64,000 bases of DNA, taken from contig QCHK01000006.1 of assembly GCA_003279635.1 (NCBI GenBank), positions 49,001 through 113,000 on the forward strand, given 5' to 3'. A program made the position numbers and the translations under genes. The stretch comes from Prochlorococcus sp. AG-402-B05 (GTDB lineage Bacteria > Cyanobacteriota > Cyanobacteriia > PCC-6307 > Cyanobiaceae). This document shows, piece after piece, positions 24,866 to 34,362 of this stretch (positions are counted from its first letter, which is position 1; every line of letters begins with the position of its first letter). Under the pieces are notes generated by a model. That model was given only the letters and a program-made list of their open reading frames with translations. It was not told where the DNA came from and made no database searches.

Positions 24866-26059
24866 CTAGAAATTAAAAGTAGTTTTAACCAAAGCTCCAT
24901 TAACGTCCTCTTTACCATCTTTCTCGACGACAAAGATAACTGGGGTGACTGTGACACTATCGTTCACTCTAAAATCGTAAAAAGATTCCCAAGCTAAAGG
25001 ATCCTCATAGCCACTGTCATCTCTATGAGTTTCGGCTGTCCCAATACCAAATCCAAACTTATTACCTTCAATCCACGCATTATTCCATATGAAGCCAACA
25101 GACCATGTATTGCCATCCTCAACCTTATTCATTGCAGTATCAGGACTATCTTCGTTTTCAGGATTCTTCCAACCAATACCAGCACTCAAGCTATAGTCGT
25201 CTCCAAATTTATAGCTACCACTAATTCCATAAGAAGAGTAATCATTAACATCAGGAGAATCATCTGTATTCCCATTATCCGCTTGGGTATAGGCAGCTGC
25301 AAGAGTAAATTTCTCATCAACCCATGCCAACTGAGTTGTTATATGATCTTTTCCTTGATCAGACAAGAAGCCAATCGAAGGATTTGATGCATCTTCTGAA
25401 ACGAAAAGTGCAGAAGCAACCAACTTTTCATGTGACCAAGTAATTCCAGCTCCAACTCCCATCTTTTTGGAATAAGTATCATTTGCTCCCGCCTGGTTTA
25501 GTACAAATAAAACTCCATCACCTGGATAAGTACTAGGCCACACTCCAAGCAAATCATCTTGACGAAGCTTGGGACCAAAAGTTACTTGAATATCATCTCC
25601 AACAGGTAACTGATAATAAGCCTTATGAAGTTGTAACGAATCACTACTACTGAAAGCAGTATCTAATCTTGCCTCACCCATCATTCCAAAGGGTTCCATC
25701 ATGCCAAAATTGCCAATACGAACAGCAGTTTTAAGCATGTCTTGACCCGTAAAACTGGTCATAAACATTAGCTTTGTATCATAATGAAAAACTGTTCCAT
25801 CCTTCTCCTCAGAACTAGACATTCCACCCATTCCACTCATTCCACTCATTCCAGAATCGCTAACTCCATCTACCCCACCTAAAATAAAAGTTGTTTTACC
25901 CATAAACATAGTTGAAGGGTATGAATTTCCCATATTCATATGACTACTATGGTGATCATGATGACCTTTGTGCTTGTTATCACCTCCTGCTTCAACAGCC
26001 ATTGGAGCCATGAAAGCTAAGGCAGCAGGGATTGAGAGCAGTTGAGCAAAGAGTTTCAT
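24866..26059 (-). CDS. outer-membrane porin with His/Met-rich N-terminal segment
   Basis: Cyanobacterial Som/OprB-like beta-barrel porin. The signal peptide begins MKLFAQLLSIPAALAFMAPM, which matches other picocyanobacterial porin signals and favours the ATG at 26059 over the in-frame start at 26098. The mature N terminus is a His cluster (KHKGHHDHHSSH) then Met/Gly repeats (GMSGMSGMGGM), an unusual metal-ligand-rich region. The rest alternates beta strands and ends in ...VKTTFNF with a terminal Phe, the outer-membrane barrel signature. No SLH domain is visible. Its position beside the zinc genes suggests a metal-related channel (inference). Confidence 0.85.
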   Translation of the reverse strand: MKLFAQLLSIPAALAFMAPMAVEAGGDNKHKGHHDHHSSHMNMGNSYPSTMFMGKTTFILGGVDGVSDSGMSGMSGMGGMSSSEEKDGTVFHYDTKLMFMTSFTGQDMLKTAVRIGNFGMMEPFGMMGEARLDTAFSSSDSLQLHKAYYQLPVGDDIQVTFGPKLRQDDLLGVWPSTYPGDGVLFVLNQAGANDTYSKKMGVGAGITWSHEKLVASALFVSEDASNPSIGFLSDQGKDHITTQLAWVDEKFTLAAAYTQADNGNTDDSPDVNDYSSYGISGSYKFGDDYSLSAGIGWKNPENEDSPDTAMNKVEDGNTWSVGFIWNNAWIEGNKFGFGIGTAETHRDDSGYEDPLAWESFYDFRVNDSVTVTPVIFVVEKDGKEDVNGALVKTTFNF

Positions 26060-26353
26060 AAGTCTTAAAGCACTAGCAAAATTAGCAAAACTAGTCATAT
26101 CTCACGAAACTAGCTTCTCAAACTTGTTAAATGCATAAAATATGTGCTTTTAGATACAAAAGATTTTGTTTTTAGTCTTTGCCAGAAAAAAACTGAGAAC
26201 CAATTTCCATCAAAATATAGTCTCAACAAGAAGAGATAAAGAATAGTTGGATGATTTGATTAGTTTTCTGTTCTAATTTTTATGAAATACTCAATGACAA
26301 AGCTCGAGGCCAAAGTAGTCTACATACTAGGTGTACTAGCCAAAACTAGATAA

Positions 26354-26614
26354 ATGGACAAACTTAAGCCTATTCTCTCCACAATTATTCTTTCTTTATC
26401 ATTTTCACTAATAGGATGTTCAGATAATACTCAAACAAAAGGTACTCCCTCTCTTTTTGAGACAAAAATAGAAGCCGAAAAAGCAGCAAAGGATTTCAAT
26501 TGCACTGGAGCTCATAAAATGGGTGACAAATGGATGCCTTGTAAAAGTCATTCTGCTCATGAAGATAAAGAAAACAACAAGTCAAGCAATGAACATCACC
26601 ATCATCATCACTAG
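26354..26614 (+). CDS. DUF3721 lipoprotein ending in hexahistidine
   Basis: An 86-residue lipoprotein: signal peptide with lipobox SLIGC (Cys22), then a DUF3721-type motif (KIEAEKAAKDFNC, TGAHKMG, WMPC; about 39-63), then a polar linker and six terminal histidines. Cys50, His54, Cys63 and the His tail are plausible metal ligands. DUF3721 has no established function. It precedes a second DUF3721 gene by 15 bp, so the two are probably co-transcribed, divergent from the porin. Confidence 0.75.
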   Translation: MDKLKPILSTIILSLSFSLIGCSDNTQTKGTPSLFETKIEAEKAAKDFNCTGAHKMGDKWMPCKSHSAHEDKENNKSSNEHHHHHH

Positions 26615-26629
26615 ATTTTCGAACAATAA

Positions 26630-27073
26630 ATGACAAACAATAATAGTACTAATCAAAAAGAGATCGAAGGTCCTTCGCATTGTGGAAGCAAACCAAAAAA
26701 TATTGCATTTGGCATAGCACCACTTGGATTCATTTCCATTGGTATTGTTCCCATGGGGATTGTAAGCATTGGGATTGTTCCCATGGGCGTCGTTTCTATT
26801 GGCGCTGTAGCCATGGGAGTATTAAATGCCTCAATAGTAGGAATGGGAATATTTTCTGCCGGAATAACAACCATGGGTCTTAAGGTATGGAGTCCAGAAA
26901 ACAATGCTATTCAGGAGTCAATCAATCGTTCTAATTCTTCGTCTTCAAAAAATATATATGCATATCCAACTAAAGCTCAGGCAGAGATCGAAGCCAAAAA
27001 GATCGGATGCAATGGTGTCCATAAGATGGGTAAATTATGGATGCCTTGTGCAATCCATATAAACCCTAACTAA
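26630..27073 (+). CDS. DUF3721 protein with six decapeptide glycine repeats
   Basis: 147 residues. Positions 27-86 consist of six ten-residue units with consensus IGIVPMGIVS (Gly every 5 residues), a hydrophobic glycine-zipper-like or stacked-strand region likely to be membrane associated. The C terminus repeats the DUF3721 motif of its neighbour: TKAQAEIEAKKIGC, NGVHKMG, WMPC (about 114-140). There is no clear signal peptide. Function unknown; the shared C-terminal motif points to a paired metal-related role. Confidence 0.7.
   Translation: MTNNNSTNQKEIEGPSHCGSKPKNIAFGIAPLGFISIGIVPMGIVSIGIVPMGVVSIGAVAMGVLNASIVGMGIFSAGITTMGLKVWSPENNAIQESINRSNSSSSKNIYAYPTKAQAEIEAKKIGCNGVHKMGKLWMPCAIHINPN
26738..26827 (+). 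repeat. three tandem 30-bp units
   Basis: Three consecutive units of 30 bp starting ATTGGTATTGTTCCCATGGG, ATTGGGATTGTTCCCATGGG and ATTGGCGCTGTAGCCATGGG. They encode the decapeptide repeats of the overlying gene. Flanking units are more diverged. Confidence 0.8.
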
Positions 27074-27980: not shown

Positions 27981-28766
27981 CTAATTACTCCTTGGAAGCA
28001 AGATCAATGAAATTACACAAAGAACACTAATAAGTGGGCCTGGAGGCAAATTCATAAACATAGCGAACGAAAAACCAATGATCGATAAAACTAATCCAAA
28101 TATGGAAGATCGAACCATCGCAACCCATAGAGAGCTAGCTTTCTGTAAACCCAACAAAGTTGGAGTTGAGAGTAACGCAATCACAAGGATGACCCCGACT
28201 GCTGACATTGAGCTCACGATGACAAGTGCAGTGGTAAATCCCAGAGCTAAATTAAAAAAAGACACATTAACGCCACTTGAGGCAGCTCCTTCTGGGTCTA
28301 AACCAATATGAACAAGCTTGTCGTACCCAAATAGCATTAGGCAAATGAATGCCGAGAACGCAATCAAAGTTCTTAATAAATCGCTCAAATTTGCAGTTAA
28401 TAAATCTCCAAACAAAACAGCCTCTAAATCAATCCTGATTCCAAGTAAAGGTACAAGCAAAACACCAAGTCCCATCGAACCAGCAAGAATTGTATTCATT
28501 ACAACTTCATAATTTTGATTTTTCTTATTTGTCAAACTCTCTGCTGCAATAGCTCCCACTAATCCGCTTAAGACTCCTCCAATAGATGGGTCAATCCCAA
28601 GCGCCATAGCCAAGGCAAGTCCTGGCAAAACACAATGTGAAATTAAATTGACTTGAAGAAGCCTTTTATGAGTTATCAATACAGTCCCCATGGCAGGGCA
28701 AAGCACTCCTGAAAAGGAAGTTATCAGAAGAGGAATTATCCACCAATTTGTATTGATAAAAGACAT
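27981..28766 (-). CDS. znuB: zinc/manganese ABC transporter permease
   Basis: Membrane component of an ABC-3 family metal importer, 261 residues with about 8 hydrophobic segments. The GLDPEGAASSGVN loop and the RSSIFG-type cytoplasmic contact typical of ZnuB/MntB permeases are visible. It is divergent from the zur-like gene and separated by it from znuC, but the set znuB, zur, znuC, znuA is contiguous. Zinc rather than manganese is favoured by the regulator and the His-rich ZnuA. Confidence 0.92.
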   Translation of the reverse strand: MSFINTNWWIIPLLITSFSGVLCPAMGTVLITHKRLLQVNLISHCVLPGLALAMALGIDPSIGGVLSGLVGAIAAESLTNKKNQNYEVVMNTILAGSMGLGVLLVPLLGIRIDLEAVLFGDLLTANLSDLLRTLIAFSAFICLMLFGYDKLVHIGLDPEGAASSGVNVSFFNLALGFTTALVIVSSMSAVGVILVIALLSTPTLLGLQKASSLWVAMVRSSIFGLVLSIIGFSFAMFMNLPPGPLISVLCVISLILLPRSN

Positions 28767-28818
28767 TAAGCAAATGATTCAGTATGTTCAGTAAAGAGAT
28801 CAAATTAAGATCTTGCTA

Positions 28819-29220
28819 ATGAATACAAGCAAGCCTGACATCACTAAGAGACAGCAACAGCTTCTCAATGAACTCAAAAAATGTACTGATGAGTTGAGTG
28901 GACAAGAACTGCATAGACAACTTCATAATGGTGAAAAGGCAATGGGTTTAACGACTGTATACAGGAACTTGCAAGCGTTAGTAAAGCAAGGCTTGATACG
29001 CTCGAGGCACCTCCCGAATGGCGAGGTCCTTTATGCCCCAGTTGAAAGAGATATTCATCATTTAACTTGCGTAAGCTGTGGAGAAACCACTCAATTGCAG
29101 GGATGCCCCGTCAAAACAATGCACGTACCCCAAAAAGCCTCTAAAAAATTTGAGCTGTTGTTTCATACTCTTGAATACTTTGGCCTCTGCCAAAATTGTT
29201 CCCAAGAATTGAATGCTTAA
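28819..29220 (+). CDS. zur: Fur-family regulator, probably the zinc sensor Zur
   Basis: Winged-helix N-terminal domain (TTVYRNLQALVKQGLI near residue 45) followed by a metal-sensing domain. CxxC pairs at C86/C89 and C126/C129 form the structural zinc site typical of Zur and Fur proteins, and His82/His83 are near the sensory site. Location inside the znu cluster makes it Zur. I start at the ATG at 28819; a TTG six bases upstream is also in frame. When zinc is bound Zur would repress the znu promoters (family knowledge). Confidence 0.88.
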   Translation: MNTSKPDITKRQQQLLNELKKCTDELSGQELHRQLHNGEKAMGLTTVYRNLQALVKQGLIRSRHLPNGEVLYAPVERDIHHLTCVSCGETTQLQGCPVKTMHVPQKASKKFELLFHTLEYFGLCQNCSQELNA

Positions 29221-29246: not shown

Positions 29247-29942
29247 CTATATTTTCCATCTCAGATAATTAATTGAACTAAGTTTTTCCTGCACCTCTTC
29301 AGGGTTGCCAGAAGCCAAAATAATCTTATCAAGAACGACAACCTTGTCATAAGCATTTAAGGACGTCCCCCAATCGTGACTACTAACGAACACCGTCAAT
29401 CCCGAATCTGCTAACTGACGAATGATTAATAGGAAATCTTCTTTTGCAGGAGGGTCAAATGCAGAACAAGGTTCATCAAGTAGAAATATTTTGGCAGGAT
29501 TCATCAAGGTTTTTGCGAGTAATGCTCTTTGTTGCTGTCCACCTGATAAAGCATCAAGTCGCCTTTTTGCTAAATGAGATATTCCAACACGTTGAAGAGC
29601 CGCTTCTAATTCACAACAAGTTGATTTCGAATGATTGACTCGACCTAAAGAAACTAATCCTTCAACAGTAATTGGAAAATTCCAATTCAGCTTTCCCCTC
29701 TGAGGCATTAAAGCCACTTGAGATCGATTATTTCTCAATGGTTTTCCATCAACAGTAATTTCTCCTTGATCCGGCTTGCTACTCCCTTGAAGCAAGCTTA
29801 ATAATGTAGACTTACCTGCGCCATTCGGACCAACAAGAGCAGTCAAAGTACCTTGCTCAAGCTTTAGAGAAACCTTGCTTAAAGCAGGTTTGATATTACT
29901 CGAATAGGAATATGTCACGTTTTCAGCAATCAAACTAGACAT
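29247..29942 (-). CDS. znuC: zinc ABC transporter ATP-binding protein
   Basis: ATPase of the metal importer. Walker A GPNGAGKST (about 39-47), signature LSGGQQQR (about 132-139), Walker B KIFLLDEP (about 151-158) and the SSHDWGTSL switch are all present. It is divergent from znuA; the gap holds a Zur-like operator. An in-frame TTG at 29945 immediately precedes the ATG used here. Confidence 0.95.
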   Translation of the reverse strand: MSSLIAENVTYSYSSNIKPALSKVSLKLEQGTLTALVGPNGAGKSTLLSLLQGSSKPDQGEITVDGKPLRNNRSQVALMPQRGKLNWNFPITVEGLVSLGRVNHSKSTCCELEAALQRVGISHLAKRRLDALSGGQQQRALLAKTLMNPAKIFLLDEPCSAFDPPAKEDFLLIIRQLADSGLTVFVSSHDWGTSLNAYDKVVVLDKIILASGNPEEVQEKLSSINYLRWKI

Positions 29943-29992
29943 CAATTAGAGGATTTGCTGACAAGAAACATAATATACTTGCCAAGACCAAA

Positions 29993-30007
29993 TGAAAATG
30001 ATTATCG
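29993..30007. promoter_or_regulatory. Zur-like operator between znuC and znuA
   Basis: TGAAAAT-G-ATTATCG is a 7-1-7 imperfect palindrome close to the cyanobacterial Zur box (TGATAATNATTATCA as I know it); 13 of 15 positions agree, counting the free centre. It lies 25 bp upstream of the znuA ATG and about 50 bp upstream of znuC, so one box could repress both directions. Confidence 0.6.
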
Positions 30008-30031
30008 TTTTAGATACGCTAAATATTCTTG

Positions 30032-31534
30032 ATGTCGAATTTTTCTAATCAGTCCAAAAAGGCTAAACCCGTAATCAATAAAACAGTTCTCAAAAGTTCT
30101 CTTGTTGCTGGAGCATTTTTATTTTCTGGAATTAATCAGAGTGCACAGGCAAATTCAAAACCAATTGTTGCCGTAGAGCCATTAGTGTGCGATGTCGTTT
30201 CTGCGATTGCACCACCTTCAACACCTATAACCTGCTTAATTGATAGAAAACAAGATGTTCATGATGTCAAAATCACTCCAAGGCAAGCTCAAACACTAAA
30301 AAGTGCAAACCAAGTATTTACTCTTGGTTCAGAGATGACCCCTGCAATGAAAAAATGGTTAGATAATCCTTTAACTGTTGTTGTAGGCGTAAGTGCAATA
30401 GAGATAGACGATCATCATGACGATCACGATGATCATTCAGCTGCTAAGGATGACGACCATGACGACCATGACGACCATGACGACCATGGCGACCATGGCG
30501 ATGCCCATGGAGAGGGAGCTTTTGAATGGGCTGGTGTTTTTGATCTTTCAGCAGGAACATACAAATGGTCTTTTGCCAAAGTCGATGGAGACTATGCTGA
30601 TCCTGCAATGAAAATGGTTATTCTCAACTCTGGTGATATAGAAGCATCAGAAGAGCTTGCTAAAGAATTATTAGGGTCTCAGAATTCAGAAACTAAACGC
30701 AATAATGACAAACTTGTTGCGCAGGAAAAAGCATATTTTCTCTCATTTAATGAGAAGAAAGACATCACAACATTTACTGTAGAAATCAAAAAATCTGGTA
30801 AATATGCATTCTTTACTGAGCATATGCCTTTTGAATTTGAAGCCGACGAACATTTCTTTAAGGATATTTCAGGCGACGATGTTGAACCGATTGCTCAAGT
30901 CCCAGATGAAGGCGATCACCATCATCACCATGACCATGGTGGGCTAGATCCTCACATCTGGCATGACCCTCATAACATCATCAAGATGGGAAATGTTATT
31001 TCTAAAAATATCAATAAGAAAATTTCCTTCTTTGACAGAGAAACAAAAAAAGTTTTAAAAGAGAGGACTCAAGCCGTTAATTCTATTTTGGAAGATCTCG
31101 ATTTATGGACTCAAAAACAAGTTGCCACAATTCCTGCTGATCGAAGGACAATCGTTTCTAAGCACAAAGCGATGGAATATTACGGAGATGCATTTGGCTT
31201 GAAGACTTTGAGTCTATTAGATTTCGTTGGTGATTCTTCAAGCCTTAGACCAGAGACTATTTCAACGGTAATAGCTGAGCTGAAAGAAGAAAACGTGAAA
31301 GTATTATTCGCTGAGCAAAAGCCTCCTTCCAAGCTATTGAAAAACCTGAGCAGACAAACTTCCACCCCTATTGCAAGAAATCAGATCTTTGTTGATGGTC
31401 TAATGCTAGAAGGGAATACTGTTTCAGTAGCAGTACACAACACATGTACAATTGTTGATTCGCTTGGTGGAGAATGTGACGAGAAAGAGGGTGATGAACT
31501 TGAGAGTAAATGGAATGATTTAAGTAACCCTTAA
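30032..31534 (+). CDS. znuA: zinc-binding protein ZnuA with His-rich loops and an inserted domain
   Basis: Periplasmic zinc-capture protein of the cluster A-I family. A Sec signal (VAGAFLFSGINQSAQA, to about 41) is followed by the N-terminal lobe with ligand His78 (DVHD). The usual His-rich loop is greatly expanded: a DDH-repeat tract (about 127-160), then an extra domain of about 110 residues (about 164-277, FEWAGVFDLSAGTY to FFTEHMPFEFE), then a second His run (about 297-303). The canonical core resumes at DPHIWHDP. At 500 residues it is nearly 200 longer than ordinary ZnuA. The inserted domain resembles one in the COG0523 GTPase downstream. Confidence 0.93.
   Translation: MSNFSNQSKKAKPVINKTVLKSSLVAGAFLFSGINQSAQANSKPIVAVEPLVCDVVSAIAPPSTPITCLIDRKQDVHDVKITPRQAQTLKSANQVFTLGSEMTPAMKKWLDNPLTVVVGVSAIEIDDHHDDHDDHSAAKDDDHDDHDDHDDHGDHGDAHGEGAFEWAGVFDLSAGTYKWSFAKVDGDYADPAMKMVILNSGDIEASEELAKELLGSQNSETKRNNDKLVAQEKAYFLSFNEKKDITTFTVEIKKSGKYAFFTEHMPFEFEADEHFFKDISGDDVEPIAQVPDEGDHHHHHDHGGLDPHIWHDPHNIIKMGNVISKNINKKISFFDRETKKVLKERTQAVNSILEDLDLWTQKQVATIPADRRTIVSKHKAMEYYGDAFGLKTLSLLDFVGDSSSLRPETISTVIAELKEENVKVLFAEQKPPSKLLKNLSRQTSTPIARNQIFVDGLMLEGNTVSVAVHNTCTIVDSLGGECDEKEGDELESKWNDLSNP
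30452..30496 (+). repeat. 9-bp tandem repeat coding Asp-Asp-His
   Basis: Four exact copies of GACGACCAT followed by one GGCGACCAT. They encode (DDH)4-GDH in the ZnuA metal-binding loop and are flanked by further degenerate copies. Copy number could change by slippage. Confidence 0.85.
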
Positions 31535-31547
31535 CTTTTACAAATAC

Positions 31548-31582
31548 AATCCTGTCTACATTGATAAAATGCAGACAGGATT
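31548..31582 (+). terminator. hairpin between znuA and the next gene
   Basis: A 10-bp perfect stem AATCCTGTCT / AGACAGGATT, extended after one mismatch by CATT/AATG around a 5-nt loop. No T-tract follows, so it may stabilise the znuA 3' end or attenuate read-through into the downstream genes rather than end transcription fully. Confidence 0.45.
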
Positions 31583-31591
31583 ACAACAAAA

Positions 31592-31909
31592 ATGTTTCCA
31601 ACTAAAGGGTTTAACGCCTACAGACAACACTGGGAAGATCAGGCAACTTTTATGGATAAAGCGCCATGGGATAGAGATAAAATCTTAAAACTTACTATCT
31701 CAACTGACTTTGATGATAATTTAAAAGAACTTCAATTTTCAAATCATTCGCTTAAGAAAGAAAATGGAAAAAATACAGTAAGATTAAAAGTTCCTTACAA
31801 TTATTTTGAGCTAGATGATTTTGAATCAAAGTCACTAGATTTATTGGGAATACAAGAGAATTGGCTAACTGATATTTCTCTTGACAACTCTCATTGTTCA
31901 CATTGTTAG
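31592..31909 (+). CDS. small protein with C-terminal Cys-Ser-His-Cys
   Basis: 105 residues, no recognised family. Charged, soluble-looking, with an N-terminal aromatic patch (FNAYRQHWEDQATFMDKAPW) and a C-terminal HCSHC ending, a likely metal site. It ends 9 bp before the COG0523 GTPase and is probably co-transcribed with it and the WD40 gene. A client, metal carrier or adaptor for the GTPase is possible; this is inference. Confidence 0.6.
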   Translation: MFPTKGFNAYRQHWEDQATFMDKAPWDRDKILKLTISTDFDDNLKELQFSNHSLKKENGKNTVRLKVPYNYFELDDFESKSLDLLGIQENWLTDISLDNSHCSHC

Positions 31910-31918
31910 TTAAAGGAA

Positions 31919-33301
31919 ATGAGCATTAAGGAAAAAGTACCGGTGACCATATTGACTGGTTTCCTAGGATCTGGCAAAACTACTCTACTTAATCGAATCC
32001 TGAGAGAAGAACATGGTAAAAAAATAGCTGTTATTGAAAATGAATATGGTGAAGTTGGTATTGATCAAGGATTAGTAATCAATGCTGACGAAGAGGTCTT
32101 CGAGATGTCCAATGGTTGCATCTGCTGCACCGTACGTGGAGATTTAATTCGTGTACTAGGAAACCTCATGAAGAGGCGAGACAAATTTGACTATGTATTA
32201 GTTGAAACTACTGGCCTTGCTGATCCTGGCCCTGTCGCTCAGACATTCTTTATGGACGATGAAATCCGTGAGGAGTTTTCACTTGATGGAATAGTCACAC
32301 TTGTTGATGCAGCCCATATAGAGCAACAACTTGGTCGAAGTGAAGAGAGTTCGGAGCAAGTTGCCTTTGCTGACGTCCTTGTCTTAAATAAAACTGATTT
32401 AGTTTCAGATGAATCACTCGACAACTTAGAGTCACGGCTACGCGATATAAATCGTATGGCTCGTGTCATACGCAGTAAACAAGCAGACGTCTCAATTGAT
32501 ACTGTGCTAAATCTAAGTGCTTTTGATTTAGATCAAGTACTTCAGCGTCGTCCAACTTTTCTTGAACCAGAATACCCATTTGAGTGGACTGGTGTATTTT
32601 CACTTGAAGAAGGTCGCTATGAACTAACGCTCGAAGAAGGTCCAGACCCCACAATGTCTCTCGTCCTGTTATTAAACCAAGGCAAGGATGAGACATCACT
32701 CAACTCAGGGGCTGAATCATGCGTAAGACTATATGCCGAACAAGAACAACTTATGAATCCAGGGGATATGGTTCCAGTCGGCAAGCATGTGAGCCTTCAA
32801 CTGCAATCCGAAGGGACTAAGTCCTTCTTCATAGATGTTGATAAGGCAAGGGATATAGGTCTATTCACTCAACATACAGCCGAAGAATTTAATATGAAAT
32901 TAACGAAAGTAAATACTCCTTCTACAGACGAGATAGATAATGATCAGAACATCTCTACAATTTCTCCAATAGCTGAGAGGGTTTGGGTAGCTGAACACGA
33001 ACACGATGACGAAGTAGGTTCAATCGCTATCGAGCGAGAGGGTGATGTAGATCCGGAGAAACTCAATAGATGGCTAAGTCGACTTTTGTCTGAGAAAGGT
33101 GTGGATATATTTCGCACCAAAGGTTTCATTAGTTATGCGGGTGAATCTAAGCGAATAGTTTTTCAAGGAGTACACATGCTCTTCACAGCACAACCTGATA
33201 AAGAATGGGGCAATGAACCTCGCCGTAACCAACTCGTCTTTATCGGTAGAAATCTTGATGCAGCAGAAATGAGTAGGGAGTTTGACAAATGTCTGGTATA
33301 G
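31919..33301 (+). CDS. COG0523 (CobW-like) metallochaperone GTPase with inserted domain
   Basis: G3E-family GTPase that delivers metal using GTP. P-loop GFLGSGKTT (14-22), the metal-binding CICC motif at 67-70, ETTGLADPGP near 96 and NKTD (157-160) are clear. The CobW_C domain spans about 365-458 and is preceded by a His/Asp linker (EHEHDDE). Between the G domain and CobW_C lies an extra segment (about 219-331) whose ends, FEWTGVFSLEEGRY, DPTM and LFTQHTAEEF, mirror the domain inserted in ZnuA. Its location in the zinc cluster places it in the zinc subgroup. Confidence 0.93.
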   Translation: MSIKEKVPVTILTGFLGSGKTTLLNRILREEHGKKIAVIENEYGEVGIDQGLVINADEEVFEMSNGCICCTVRGDLIRVLGNLMKRRDKFDYVLVETTGLADPGPVAQTFFMDDEIREEFSLDGIVTLVDAAHIEQQLGRSEESSEQVAFADVLVLNKTDLVSDESLDNLESRLRDINRMARVIRSKQADVSIDTVLNLSAFDLDQVLQRRPTFLEPEYPFEWTGVFSLEEGRYELTLEEGPDPTMSLVLLLNQGKDETSLNSGAESCVRLYAEQEQLMNPGDMVPVGKHVSLQLQSEGTKSFFIDVDKARDIGLFTQHTAEEFNMKLTKVNTPSTDEIDNDQNISTISPIAERVWVAEHEHDDEVGSIAIEREGDVDPEKLNRWLSRLLSEKGVDIFRTKGFISYAGESKRIVFQGVHMLFTAQPDKEWGNEPRRNQLVFIGRNLDAAEMSREFDKCLV

Positions 33302-34362
33302 AAGCATTTAGTCCCAAGGGAATGCTTCATGAAGGTTGGTCTACGCAAGTTGACGACTATGCGATTGTCTGCGGCTGGGCACTAGAAGGTAAAACTTTTT
33401 TAGTAGGTGATGTCGCTGGTGGGCTTTACGCATTTGAGGGGAAATCTGGAAAACTCATTTGGCAAATAAAAGACATACATAAAGGTGGCTTACTCGCAAT
33501 GTCTATACATCCAAATGGAAAGACTTTTGCAACTGCTGGCCAAGATGGACATGTGAATATATGGGAAAGCAAAGAGGGTAAGGCAACTAAAGCTTTGGAA
33601 CTTGGGAAAGGATGGGTTGAGCACCTAAAGTGGTCCCCAGACGGAAAATTTTTAGCAGTAGTTTTTACTAAATACGTCTATGTTTTTGATGATAAAGGTC
33701 AAGAACATTGGCGATCAGAGGAGCATCCCAGCACTGTCAGCGCGATTGCTTGGTCTAATTCAAATGAATTAGCAACAGCAGGCTATGGCCAAGTAACTTT
33801 TTTTGATGTAGTAAACGACAAGATCAATCAAAAGTTGGAGTGGCGAGGCTCACTGGTATCAATGGTGCTTAGTCCAGATGGAGACATAGTGGCATGCGGC
33901 AGTCAGGATAATTCTGTTCATTTCTGGCGTCGTTCAACAGATGAAGATTCAGAGATGACAGGATATCCAGGCAAACCAAGCCACCTAGCTTTTGATCAAA
34001 CTGGCACAGTTCTTGCTACTGGGGGTAGTGATCGAGTAACGGTTTGGAGTTTTCAAGACGATGGTCCTGAGGGCACTGTACCTGGAGAGTTAATGCTTCA
34101 TACCGAACCCATTTCATGCCTTGCTTTCTCACATAGCGGGATGCTTTTAGCTTCTGGCGCGAGAGATGGTTCAGTTTTTTCTTGGTTCCTCCAAGCAGAT
34201 GGTCAGGGTGATCCAGTTGGTGGTGCATTTTCAGGTGACCTTGTAAGCCAAATCGCTTGGCACCCTGATGACACTGCCTTGGCTGCAATAAATGCAAACG
34301 GAGGAATTACGGTTTGGGATTTTAAGGTTCGGACGAAAACGTCACCTCAAGGATTCGAATAA
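33289..34362 (+). CDS. WD40 repeat beta-propeller protein
   Basis: 357 residues made of about seven WD40 blades. Recurrent units such as HPNGKTFATAGQDGHVNIWES, SPDGDIVACGSQDNSVHFW and HSGMLLASGARDGSVFSW are typical. It lacks a signal peptide, so it is probably a cytoplasmic scaffold. Its start overlaps the COG0523 stop by 13 bp, which implies coupled translation and a working partnership. The function of such WD40 partners is not established to my knowledge; a platform linking the GTPase to its client is my suggestion. Confidence 0.88.
   Translation: MSGIEAFSPKGMLHEGWSTQVDDYAIVCGWALEGKTFLVGDVAGGLYAFEGKSGKLIWQIKDIHKGGLLAMSIHPNGKTFATAGQDGHVNIWESKEGKATKALELGKGWVEHLKWSPDGKFLAVVFTKYVYVFDDKGQEHWRSEEHPSTVSAIAWSNSNELATAGYGQVTFFDVVNDKINQKLEWRGSLVSMVLSPDGDIVACGSQDNSVHFWRRSTDEDSEMTGYPGKPSHLAFDQTGTVLATGGSDRVTVWSFQDDGPEGTVPGELMLHTEPISCLAFSHSGMLLASGARDGSVFSWFLQADGQGDPVGGAFSGDLVSQIAWHPDDTALAAINANGGITVWDFKVRTKTSPQGFE

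Follow-up and report, generated by a model that had tools for sequence, protein, structure and literature searches.

An unnamed domain inserted into ZnuA and a COG0523 GTPase of one Prochlorococcus zinc cluster and its possible role in metal handling

In a zinc cluster of Prochlorococcus sp. AG-402-B05, two unrelated proteins, the substrate-binding protein ZnuA of a zinc ABC (ATP-binding cassette) transporter and a COG0523 (CobW-type) GTPase, carry inserted segments that resemble each other. This raises the question of whether the inserts are related, how they came to reside in such different hosts, and what they do there. The window, i.e., the whole stretch of DNA that was analysed, comprises 64,000 nucleotides of this genome (contig QCHK01000006.1, positions 49,001 to 113,000). 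The two inserts, residues 163–287 of ZnuA and 217–336 of the GTPase, are homologous. They represent an unnamed domain that is predicted from structure models to be a beta-sandwich and that, by a slight balance of probability, is a mobile module acting as an extra metal-handling site that passes metal to its host.

Homology and conserved residues of the two inserts

A whole-protein BLASTP comparison of ZnuA and the GTPase yields a single significant match (E = 2e-7), which places FEWAGVFDL opposite FEWTGVFSL and FFTEHMPFEF opposite LFTQHTAEEF. In a profile–profile alignment, the two inserts match with a probability of 96.7% (E = 3.4e-10) over 105 columns. Their Smith-Waterman score of 92 is reached by none of 5,000 shuffles of the GTPase insert (maximum 60), and each insert scores only 21–29 against the remainder of the other protein. 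Across the whole source genome, a profile of the ZnuA insert has exactly two matches, ZnuA (1.2e-67) and the GTPase (5e-6), and none in the two other CobW_C proteins. Separately built profiles of the ZnuA and GTPase inserts match 152 frames each over 82 loci, and the eight plasmid records found by tblastn with the ZnuA insert (E = 3e-9 to 1e-3) all lie within the 11 found with the GTPase insert. AlphaFold models of the inserts, made separately, show the same order of elements except for one short strand. The initial annotation, which had proposed the same inserted domain in both proteins and had suggested profile–profile alignment and structure models as checks, is thus borne out by both.

The annotation was also right that the hosts are unrelated. 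ZnuA belongs to PF01297 (161.6 bits against a cut-off of 29), with the match split in two around the insert, whereas the GTPase scores above the cut-offs of both cobW (208.4 bits, residues 8–184) and CobW_C (90.4 bits, residues 367–459), and its GCICC fits the CxCC motif of COG0523. As described there, the GTPase insert is located between the G domain and CobW_C; the ZnuA segment (about residues 164–277) was correctly recognized as well, but its end had been set too early and reaches about residue 287. The claim that no named family covers the insert agrees with the scans of Pfam and NCBIfam, neither of which gives a match at the curated cut-off. With E values up to 10, Pfam finds only PF24163 in the ZnuA insert (E = 0.13; 12.8 bits against 27) and nothing in the GTPase insert. 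ZrgA (PF10986) stays below its cut-off (17.9 bits against 27.4) and aligns solely across the His-rich residues 122–165 of ZnuA.

Conservation was evaluated in a pool of 643 matches with a profile coverage of at least 85% and a score of at least 30 bits. A protein and its locus can be counted twice in this pool, which comprises 472 distinct frames. It was mostly drawn from the matches listed (120 of 1485, 120 of 1014, and 120 of 141 proteins; 80 of 272 loci), and the counts describe this pool only, with Prochlorococcus heavily over-represented. After copies more than 85% identical within a host type or with unknown letters had been dropped and seven fragments relabelled by hand, 119 copies and that of the window remained, i.e., a non-redundant set of 120 (34 ZnuA, 80 GTPase, and 6 others). 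Insert positions D29 and H103 are invariant in all 120 copies; E4 is kept in 119 (one gap), W5 and G7 in 118, and E107 in 116. A GTPase from the window's phylum (L151) has lost the tryptophan and the glycine and retained the Glu, Asp, His, and Glu residues.

Judging from this pattern, E4, D29, H103, and E107 form a predicted metal site. In the predicted topology, E4, D29, and H103 are all situated at strand ends, so that they may contribute to a single site. The histidine of the FTxH motif, previously put forward as a candidate ligand, is the invariant one of this predicted site. The combination of EWxG, D, and HxxxE could tie many proteins without a named domain to metal handling.

Hosts of the domain and its possible function

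Among the genomes of the window's genus, two matches were found in each of the 19 that are at least 86% complete (including the source genome); among the 18 genomes of lower completeness, four lack a match and three show a single one. In the family, 38 of 151 genomes are matched, 33 with two or more matches and five with one of GTPase length; in these genome scans, the length and place of the frame served to tell ZnuA from GTPase, with sequence used in only part of the cases. Outside the family, the insert is rare and scattered. It was found in one of 23 genomes of the class that belong to other families, 26 of 339 genomes of the phylum (mostly from the window's own family), 7 of 369 Gammaproteobacteria, 6 of 385 genomes of the class that includes a Rhizobiaceae metagenome-assembled genome, and 2 of 200 genomes of the Nitrosopumilus phylum (counts beyond the family include the centre genomes).

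Among the best 80 of 272 loci, the closest are from Prochlorococcus, where the identity of the ZnuA insert reaches 99%. Five of the 80 are non-cyanobacterial, all with ZnuA as host (a SAR11-type bacterium, a member of Halothiobacillaceae, another gammaproteobacterium, a member of Rhizobiaceae, and Nitrosopumilus); because four are metagenome bins and one is apparently a single cell, wrong binning is possible. Insert-bearing ZnuAs are also encoded on plasmids of Haloarcula, Halorientalis, and Halorubrum, and GTPase hosts occur in Nitrosopumilus, a second genome of its phylum, a Myxococcota bin, Pantoea, and Paraburkholderia. This range of hosts shows that the insert is restricted neither to cyanobacteria nor to ZnuA and the GTPase, as do the following cases.

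On three haloarchaeal plasmids, the domain stands alone as a lipoprotein with His-rich ends and, by eye, a twin-arginine-type signal. The stand-alone copy of Natrinema (L113, 7872–8423) directly follows a run of urease genes, and its metal may be nickel. A presumably bacterial lipoprotein, P0350 (a single sequence), likewise consists of the domain alone; as a whole, it matches NCBIfam LytA far below the cut-off (E = 0.00035). An Alicyclobacillus plasmid (L123, 5782–6693) encodes the domain inside a membrane protein, between His-containing stretches and next to cation transporters and metal regulators. The whole protein has no Pfam or NCBIfam match, and its C-terminal piece matches only DsbD_2 (E = 0.063); its HSILPDH fits what we take to be the HX4DH motif of NicO/UreH-like transporters. 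A NicO-like frame with HGLDPDH is located just before an insert-bearing GTPase from the window's phylum (L149, 1–837). P0319, a single secreted sequence, looks algal and may continue after an intron.

Two further candidates were rejected. Three scans of viral and phage contigs contained no relative of the insert, and phages or viruses were discarded as its carriers. An 873-residue ZnuA of G488 (L114, 4727–7345) resembles a tandem fusion, but unknown letters separate its near-identical halves, and it is probably an assembly fault.

The analysis establishes the homology of the inserts, their near-invariant residues, the set of hosts, many neighbouring metal genes, and the unequal divergence of insert and host; that the domain binds metal, how its site is composed, and that the metal is handed over are inferences. 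The conserved Glu, Asp, His, and Glu residues would hold a metal ion and then pass it to the host protein. Lying among His-rich stretches, the ZnuA insert would improve the capture of zinc when the metal is very scarce. Its counterpart in the COG0523 GTPase would accept the chaperoned metal or donate it, and the domain would play the same part in the membrane protein and in the lipoproteins that consist of it alone. An accessory metal site is the most likely role because the ion is present in both compartments, where a shared protein partner is hardly possible, and because the domain also stands alone and many of its neighbourhoods are metal-related. The urease genes and HX4DH proteins next to some hosts point to nickel, i.e., to a metal other than zinc. 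A domain common to a zinc importer and a GTPase of the same zinc cluster would provide a testable part that possibly links uptake and delivery.

The relationship between the insert and the His-rich loop of ZnuA depends on copy number. The domain had been thought to sit in place of the loop, which does not hold for the window, where the insert lies inside the His-rich region and is flanked by His-rich sequence on both sides, nor for one-copy ZnuAs in general, 70 of 73 of which keep a His-rich stretch before the insert. In ZnuAs with two copies, by contrast, that stretch is lacking in 133 of 134; the stretch after the insert is kept in all 207 proteins. The loss of the upstream loop fits a domain that does the loop's work. 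In the host tree, the two-copy Prochlorococcus ZnuAs fall into one clade of eight that also includes one-copy proteins, so that the independent events may be few. The habitat of Prochlorococcus is zinc-poor, and the doubling of the ZnuA insert would, if this reading is true, represent an adaptation to a zinc-poor ocean.

Alternatively, as the initial annotation had suggested, the insert may be a docking module through which ZnuA and the GTPase bind one and the same partner; the permease and the WD40 protein would be candidates. GOLD domains, which are protein-binding, are represented by p24 and ACBD3 among the weak fold matches listed for the insert models, and 33 of the 38 matched genomes of the family have two or more matches, the other five having one of GTPase length. 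A WD40 frame follows the GTPase gene in 10 of 10 hand-chosen loci; L099 has another gene there. A shared partner is disfavoured, however, by the six fully searched non-cyanobacterial genomes with a ZnuA insert, five of which (G060–G063 and G359) lack an insert in a GTPase, although the absence carries little weight in one of them, a single-cell genome of 1.1 Mb; only Nitrosopumilus (G064) has both. Moreover, the two proteins should be located in separate compartments, the domain exists by itself in lipoproteins of haloarchaea and bacteria, and Glu, Asp, His, and Glu are among the most strongly conserved residues. A common docking role is therefore unlikely; the GTPase by itself may still dock to the WD40 protein.

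It is quite unlikely that metal is delivered only in complex with a small organic molecule, for instance a metal chelate or a sugar, to which the domain would bind. Sandwiches of the CBM35 type bind small organic ligands such as sugars, and CBM35 chains are among the better matches of both insert models in a second look at structures; the Pantoea GTPase is encoded near a transporter annotated for iron chelate uptake. These fold matches are weak, however, and a common sandwich fold does not reveal a function; in addition, the chelate would be needed both outside and inside the cell.

Probable transfer of the domain between hosts

The divergence of inserts and hosts differs strongly across phyla. 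Without its insert, the ZnuA of the window is 60–66% identical to the two-copy ZnuAs of Prochlorococcus, whose inserts are 69–73% identical to that of the window. Compared with the five non-cyanobacterial ZnuAs and L097, the identity of the host part drops to 18–23%, whereas the inserts of the five (SAR11-type, Halothiobacillaceae, other gammaproteobacterial, Rhizobiaceae, and Nitrosopumilus) are still 71–76% and that of L097 65% identical. The values are 57% for the insert and 20% for the host part of P0244, and 34–37% and 16–17% for the three haloarchaea. The median ratio of insert to host distance is 0.78 within Prochlorococcus; it is 0.08 when Prochlorococcus is compared with the others and 0.17 when the latter are compared with each other, with the reservation that the ratio is rough because the distances between unrelated ZnuA hosts are saturated (median about 9 changes per column).

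Base composition was compared in 15 genes. In two gammaproteobacterial ZnuAs (L040 and L042) with host parts 71% identical to each other, the GC content at third codon positions (GC3) of the insert is 0.34 and 0.35, respectively, and about 0.5 in both flanks; none of 2,000 random codon sets is as low. Among the other 13 genes, the ZnuA of Nitrosopumilus (41 of 2,000) and one GTPase (116 of 2,000) lean low, the three haloarchaeal ZnuAs lean high, and the remaining ones show nothing, as would be expected if the acquisition was older or the donor genome similar.

Together, distance and composition support the earlier idea of a mobile module, and the insert very likely moved without its host, as far as the sequences indicate. 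The His/Asp repeats that flank it would be a natural place for an exchange of modules. Two results weigh against a mobile metal-handling domain. Tree tests, made with 19 hosts and 24 insert copies and without the three haloarchaeal ones, failed to reject host-like groupings and are not significant as proof of transfer, so that the case rests on distance, composition, and patchiness; and the lipoprotein copies of Halosolutus and Halomontanus have no clear metal genes adjoining.

The same tree tests would agree with extreme constraint on an old domain, which would explain the high identity of ZnuA inserts across phyla in place of transfer. Insert identities of about 70%, as seen within Prochlorococcus and likewise in five other lineages, would also be produced by a plateau. 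Such a plateau is very doubtful, because the family diverges much further (57% in P0244, 34–37% in haloarchaeal ZnuAs, and 22–30% in GTPases), the evolutionary rate of the insert within Prochlorococcus is about 0.78 times that of the host, foreign GC3 is limited to the insert in L040 and L042, and its presence is patchy (7 of 369, 6 of 385, and 2 of 200 genomes).

A purely structural role as a spacer or stabiliser that binds no ligand would likewise be compatible with insertion between the parts of two unrelated hosts and with duplication, but it is highly improbable in view of the near-invariant polar residues across otherwise unrelated hosts and of the free-standing copies.

The metal-handling reading can tentatively be extended to a metal-relay domain with an E-D-H-E site that is passed as a cassette from one His-rich loop to another among unrelated bacterial and archaeal (perhaps also algal) metal proteins, that may serve an importer, a chaperone, a membrane transporter, and a surface lipoprotein, and that was doubled in many Prochlorococcus, replacing the upstream loop of ZnuA. 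Its presence in SAR11, Nitrosopumilus, proteobacteria, and haloarchaea would then mark a common and transferable answer to metal scarcity.

The zinc cluster and its relation to known systems

The cluster consists of znuB and znuC on the minus strand, with a Fur-family regulator on the plus strand between them, followed on the plus strand by znuA, a small open reading frame (ORF), the GTPase gene, and the WD40 gene (Table 1). The znuA frame starts with TTG at 30029 and has its first ATG at 30032; a 9-base tandem repeat detected by Tandem Repeats Finder (30450–30501) lies within the His/Asp-rich stretch upstream of the insert. In the gap between znuC and znuA, TGATTATCGTTTTAGATA (29999–30016) resembles what we take to be a Zur box. 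The small ORF has no match in Pfam or NCBIfam; in two-copy Prochlorococcus (e.g., L038), the gap between znuA and the GTPase gene is too small for it. The genes of the GTPase and the WD40 protein overlap by 13 bases (33289–33301); the same overlap is present in Nitrosopumilus (L085) and Pantoea (L124), and its recurrence suggests that the two form a conserved coupled pair.

Table 1. Features of the zinc cluster (positions in the window)
Feature	Position	Strand	Evidence
znuB, ABC-3 permease	27981..28766	-	PF00950, E 5.3e-42
Fur-family regulator, probably Zur	28813..29220	+	PF01475, E 2e-17; Zur name by position
znuC, ABC ATPase	29247..29945	-	PF00005, E 3.7e-32; znuC name by position
znuA with inserted domain, zinc ABC transporter substrate-binding protein	30029..31534	+	PF01297, E 3.4e-47, two stretches
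His/Asp-rich stretch 5' of the ZnuA insert, residues 126–162	30404..30514	+	sequence
ZnuA insert, residues 163–287; conserved E166, W167, G169, D191, H265, E269	30515..30889	+	homology, model, conservation
His-rich stretch HHHHHDH 3' of the ZnuA insert, residues 297–303	30917..30937	+	sequence
Small ORF between znuA and GTPase gene, 105 aa, C-terminus HCSHC	31592..31909	+	
COG0523 (CobW-type) GTPase with insert and GCICC motif	31919..33301	+	PF02492, E 8.1e-62; PF07683, E 6.8e-26
GTPase insert, residues 217–336; conserved E222, W223, G225, D243, H319, E323	32567..32926	+	homology, model, conservation
WD40 beta-propeller gene	33289..34362	+	domain scan

Two small DUF3721 proteins adjoin the cluster (26354–27073), the first ending in six histidines and the second containing GLTT repeats. 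A 410-residue protein (24866–26098) with a His- and Met-rich start is possibly an outer-membrane porin; it has no Pfam match at E = 1e-5.

Several known systems resemble parts of this arrangement. Binding proteins of the AdcA type are ZnuA-like and carry ZinT, an accessory zinc-binding domain, at the C-terminus and not as an insertion. No Pfam match to ZinT was found in the whole proteins (E up to 1) or the inserts (E up to 10), and we know of no ZinT domain in any COG0523 GTPase. The HMA domain provides a precedent for a single metal domain in both a transporter (CopA) and a chaperone (CopZ/Atx1). It is ferredoxin-like, binds via CxxC, and passes copper from domain to domain in the cytosol; by contrast, the domain described here is a predicted beta-sandwich with Glu, Asp, His, and Glu, whose hosts ZnuA and GTPase should reside in separate compartments. 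The chaperone AztD reportedly hands zinc directly to the binding protein AztC, which resembles the proposed hand-over, but AztD is a separate protein and not an inserted domain.

A literature search, with subscription papers mostly outside its coverage, yielded no published description of the insert, and the accessible text of two studies of how marine picocyanobacteria take up zinc and nutrients (PMC8786288, PMC9337993) does not mention it. According to the former, hardly any Prochlorococcus has a member of the picocyanobacterial ZnuA cluster CK_2462, so that insert-bearing ZnuAs of this genus would be filed elsewhere. The Zn/Co-responsive diatom protein ZCRP-B was considered as a relative and dismissed, since the available description characterizes it as NikA-like. 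As far as the accessible part of Haas et al. (2009, PMC2770081) goes, COG0523 GTPases of subfamily 5 cluster with WD40, znuABC, and creatinase genes. The GTPase of the window, which adjoins WD40 and znuABC genes, shares this neighbourhood, but that text mentions no extra domain between the G domain and CobW_C. The exoprotein ZepA, as described in the available text of PMC10957091, binds zinc, contains a beta-sandwich domain, and is encoded near znuA and COG0523 genes in some genomes; likened by description only, it is a PEP-CTERM exoprotein of a different build. The closest counterpart by location is the His-rich loop of ZnuA (accessible text of PMC8786288), which occupies the same region of the protein and presumably gathers zinc near the cleft in the same way, whereas the insert is a folded domain of about 125 residues that is present also in other proteins.

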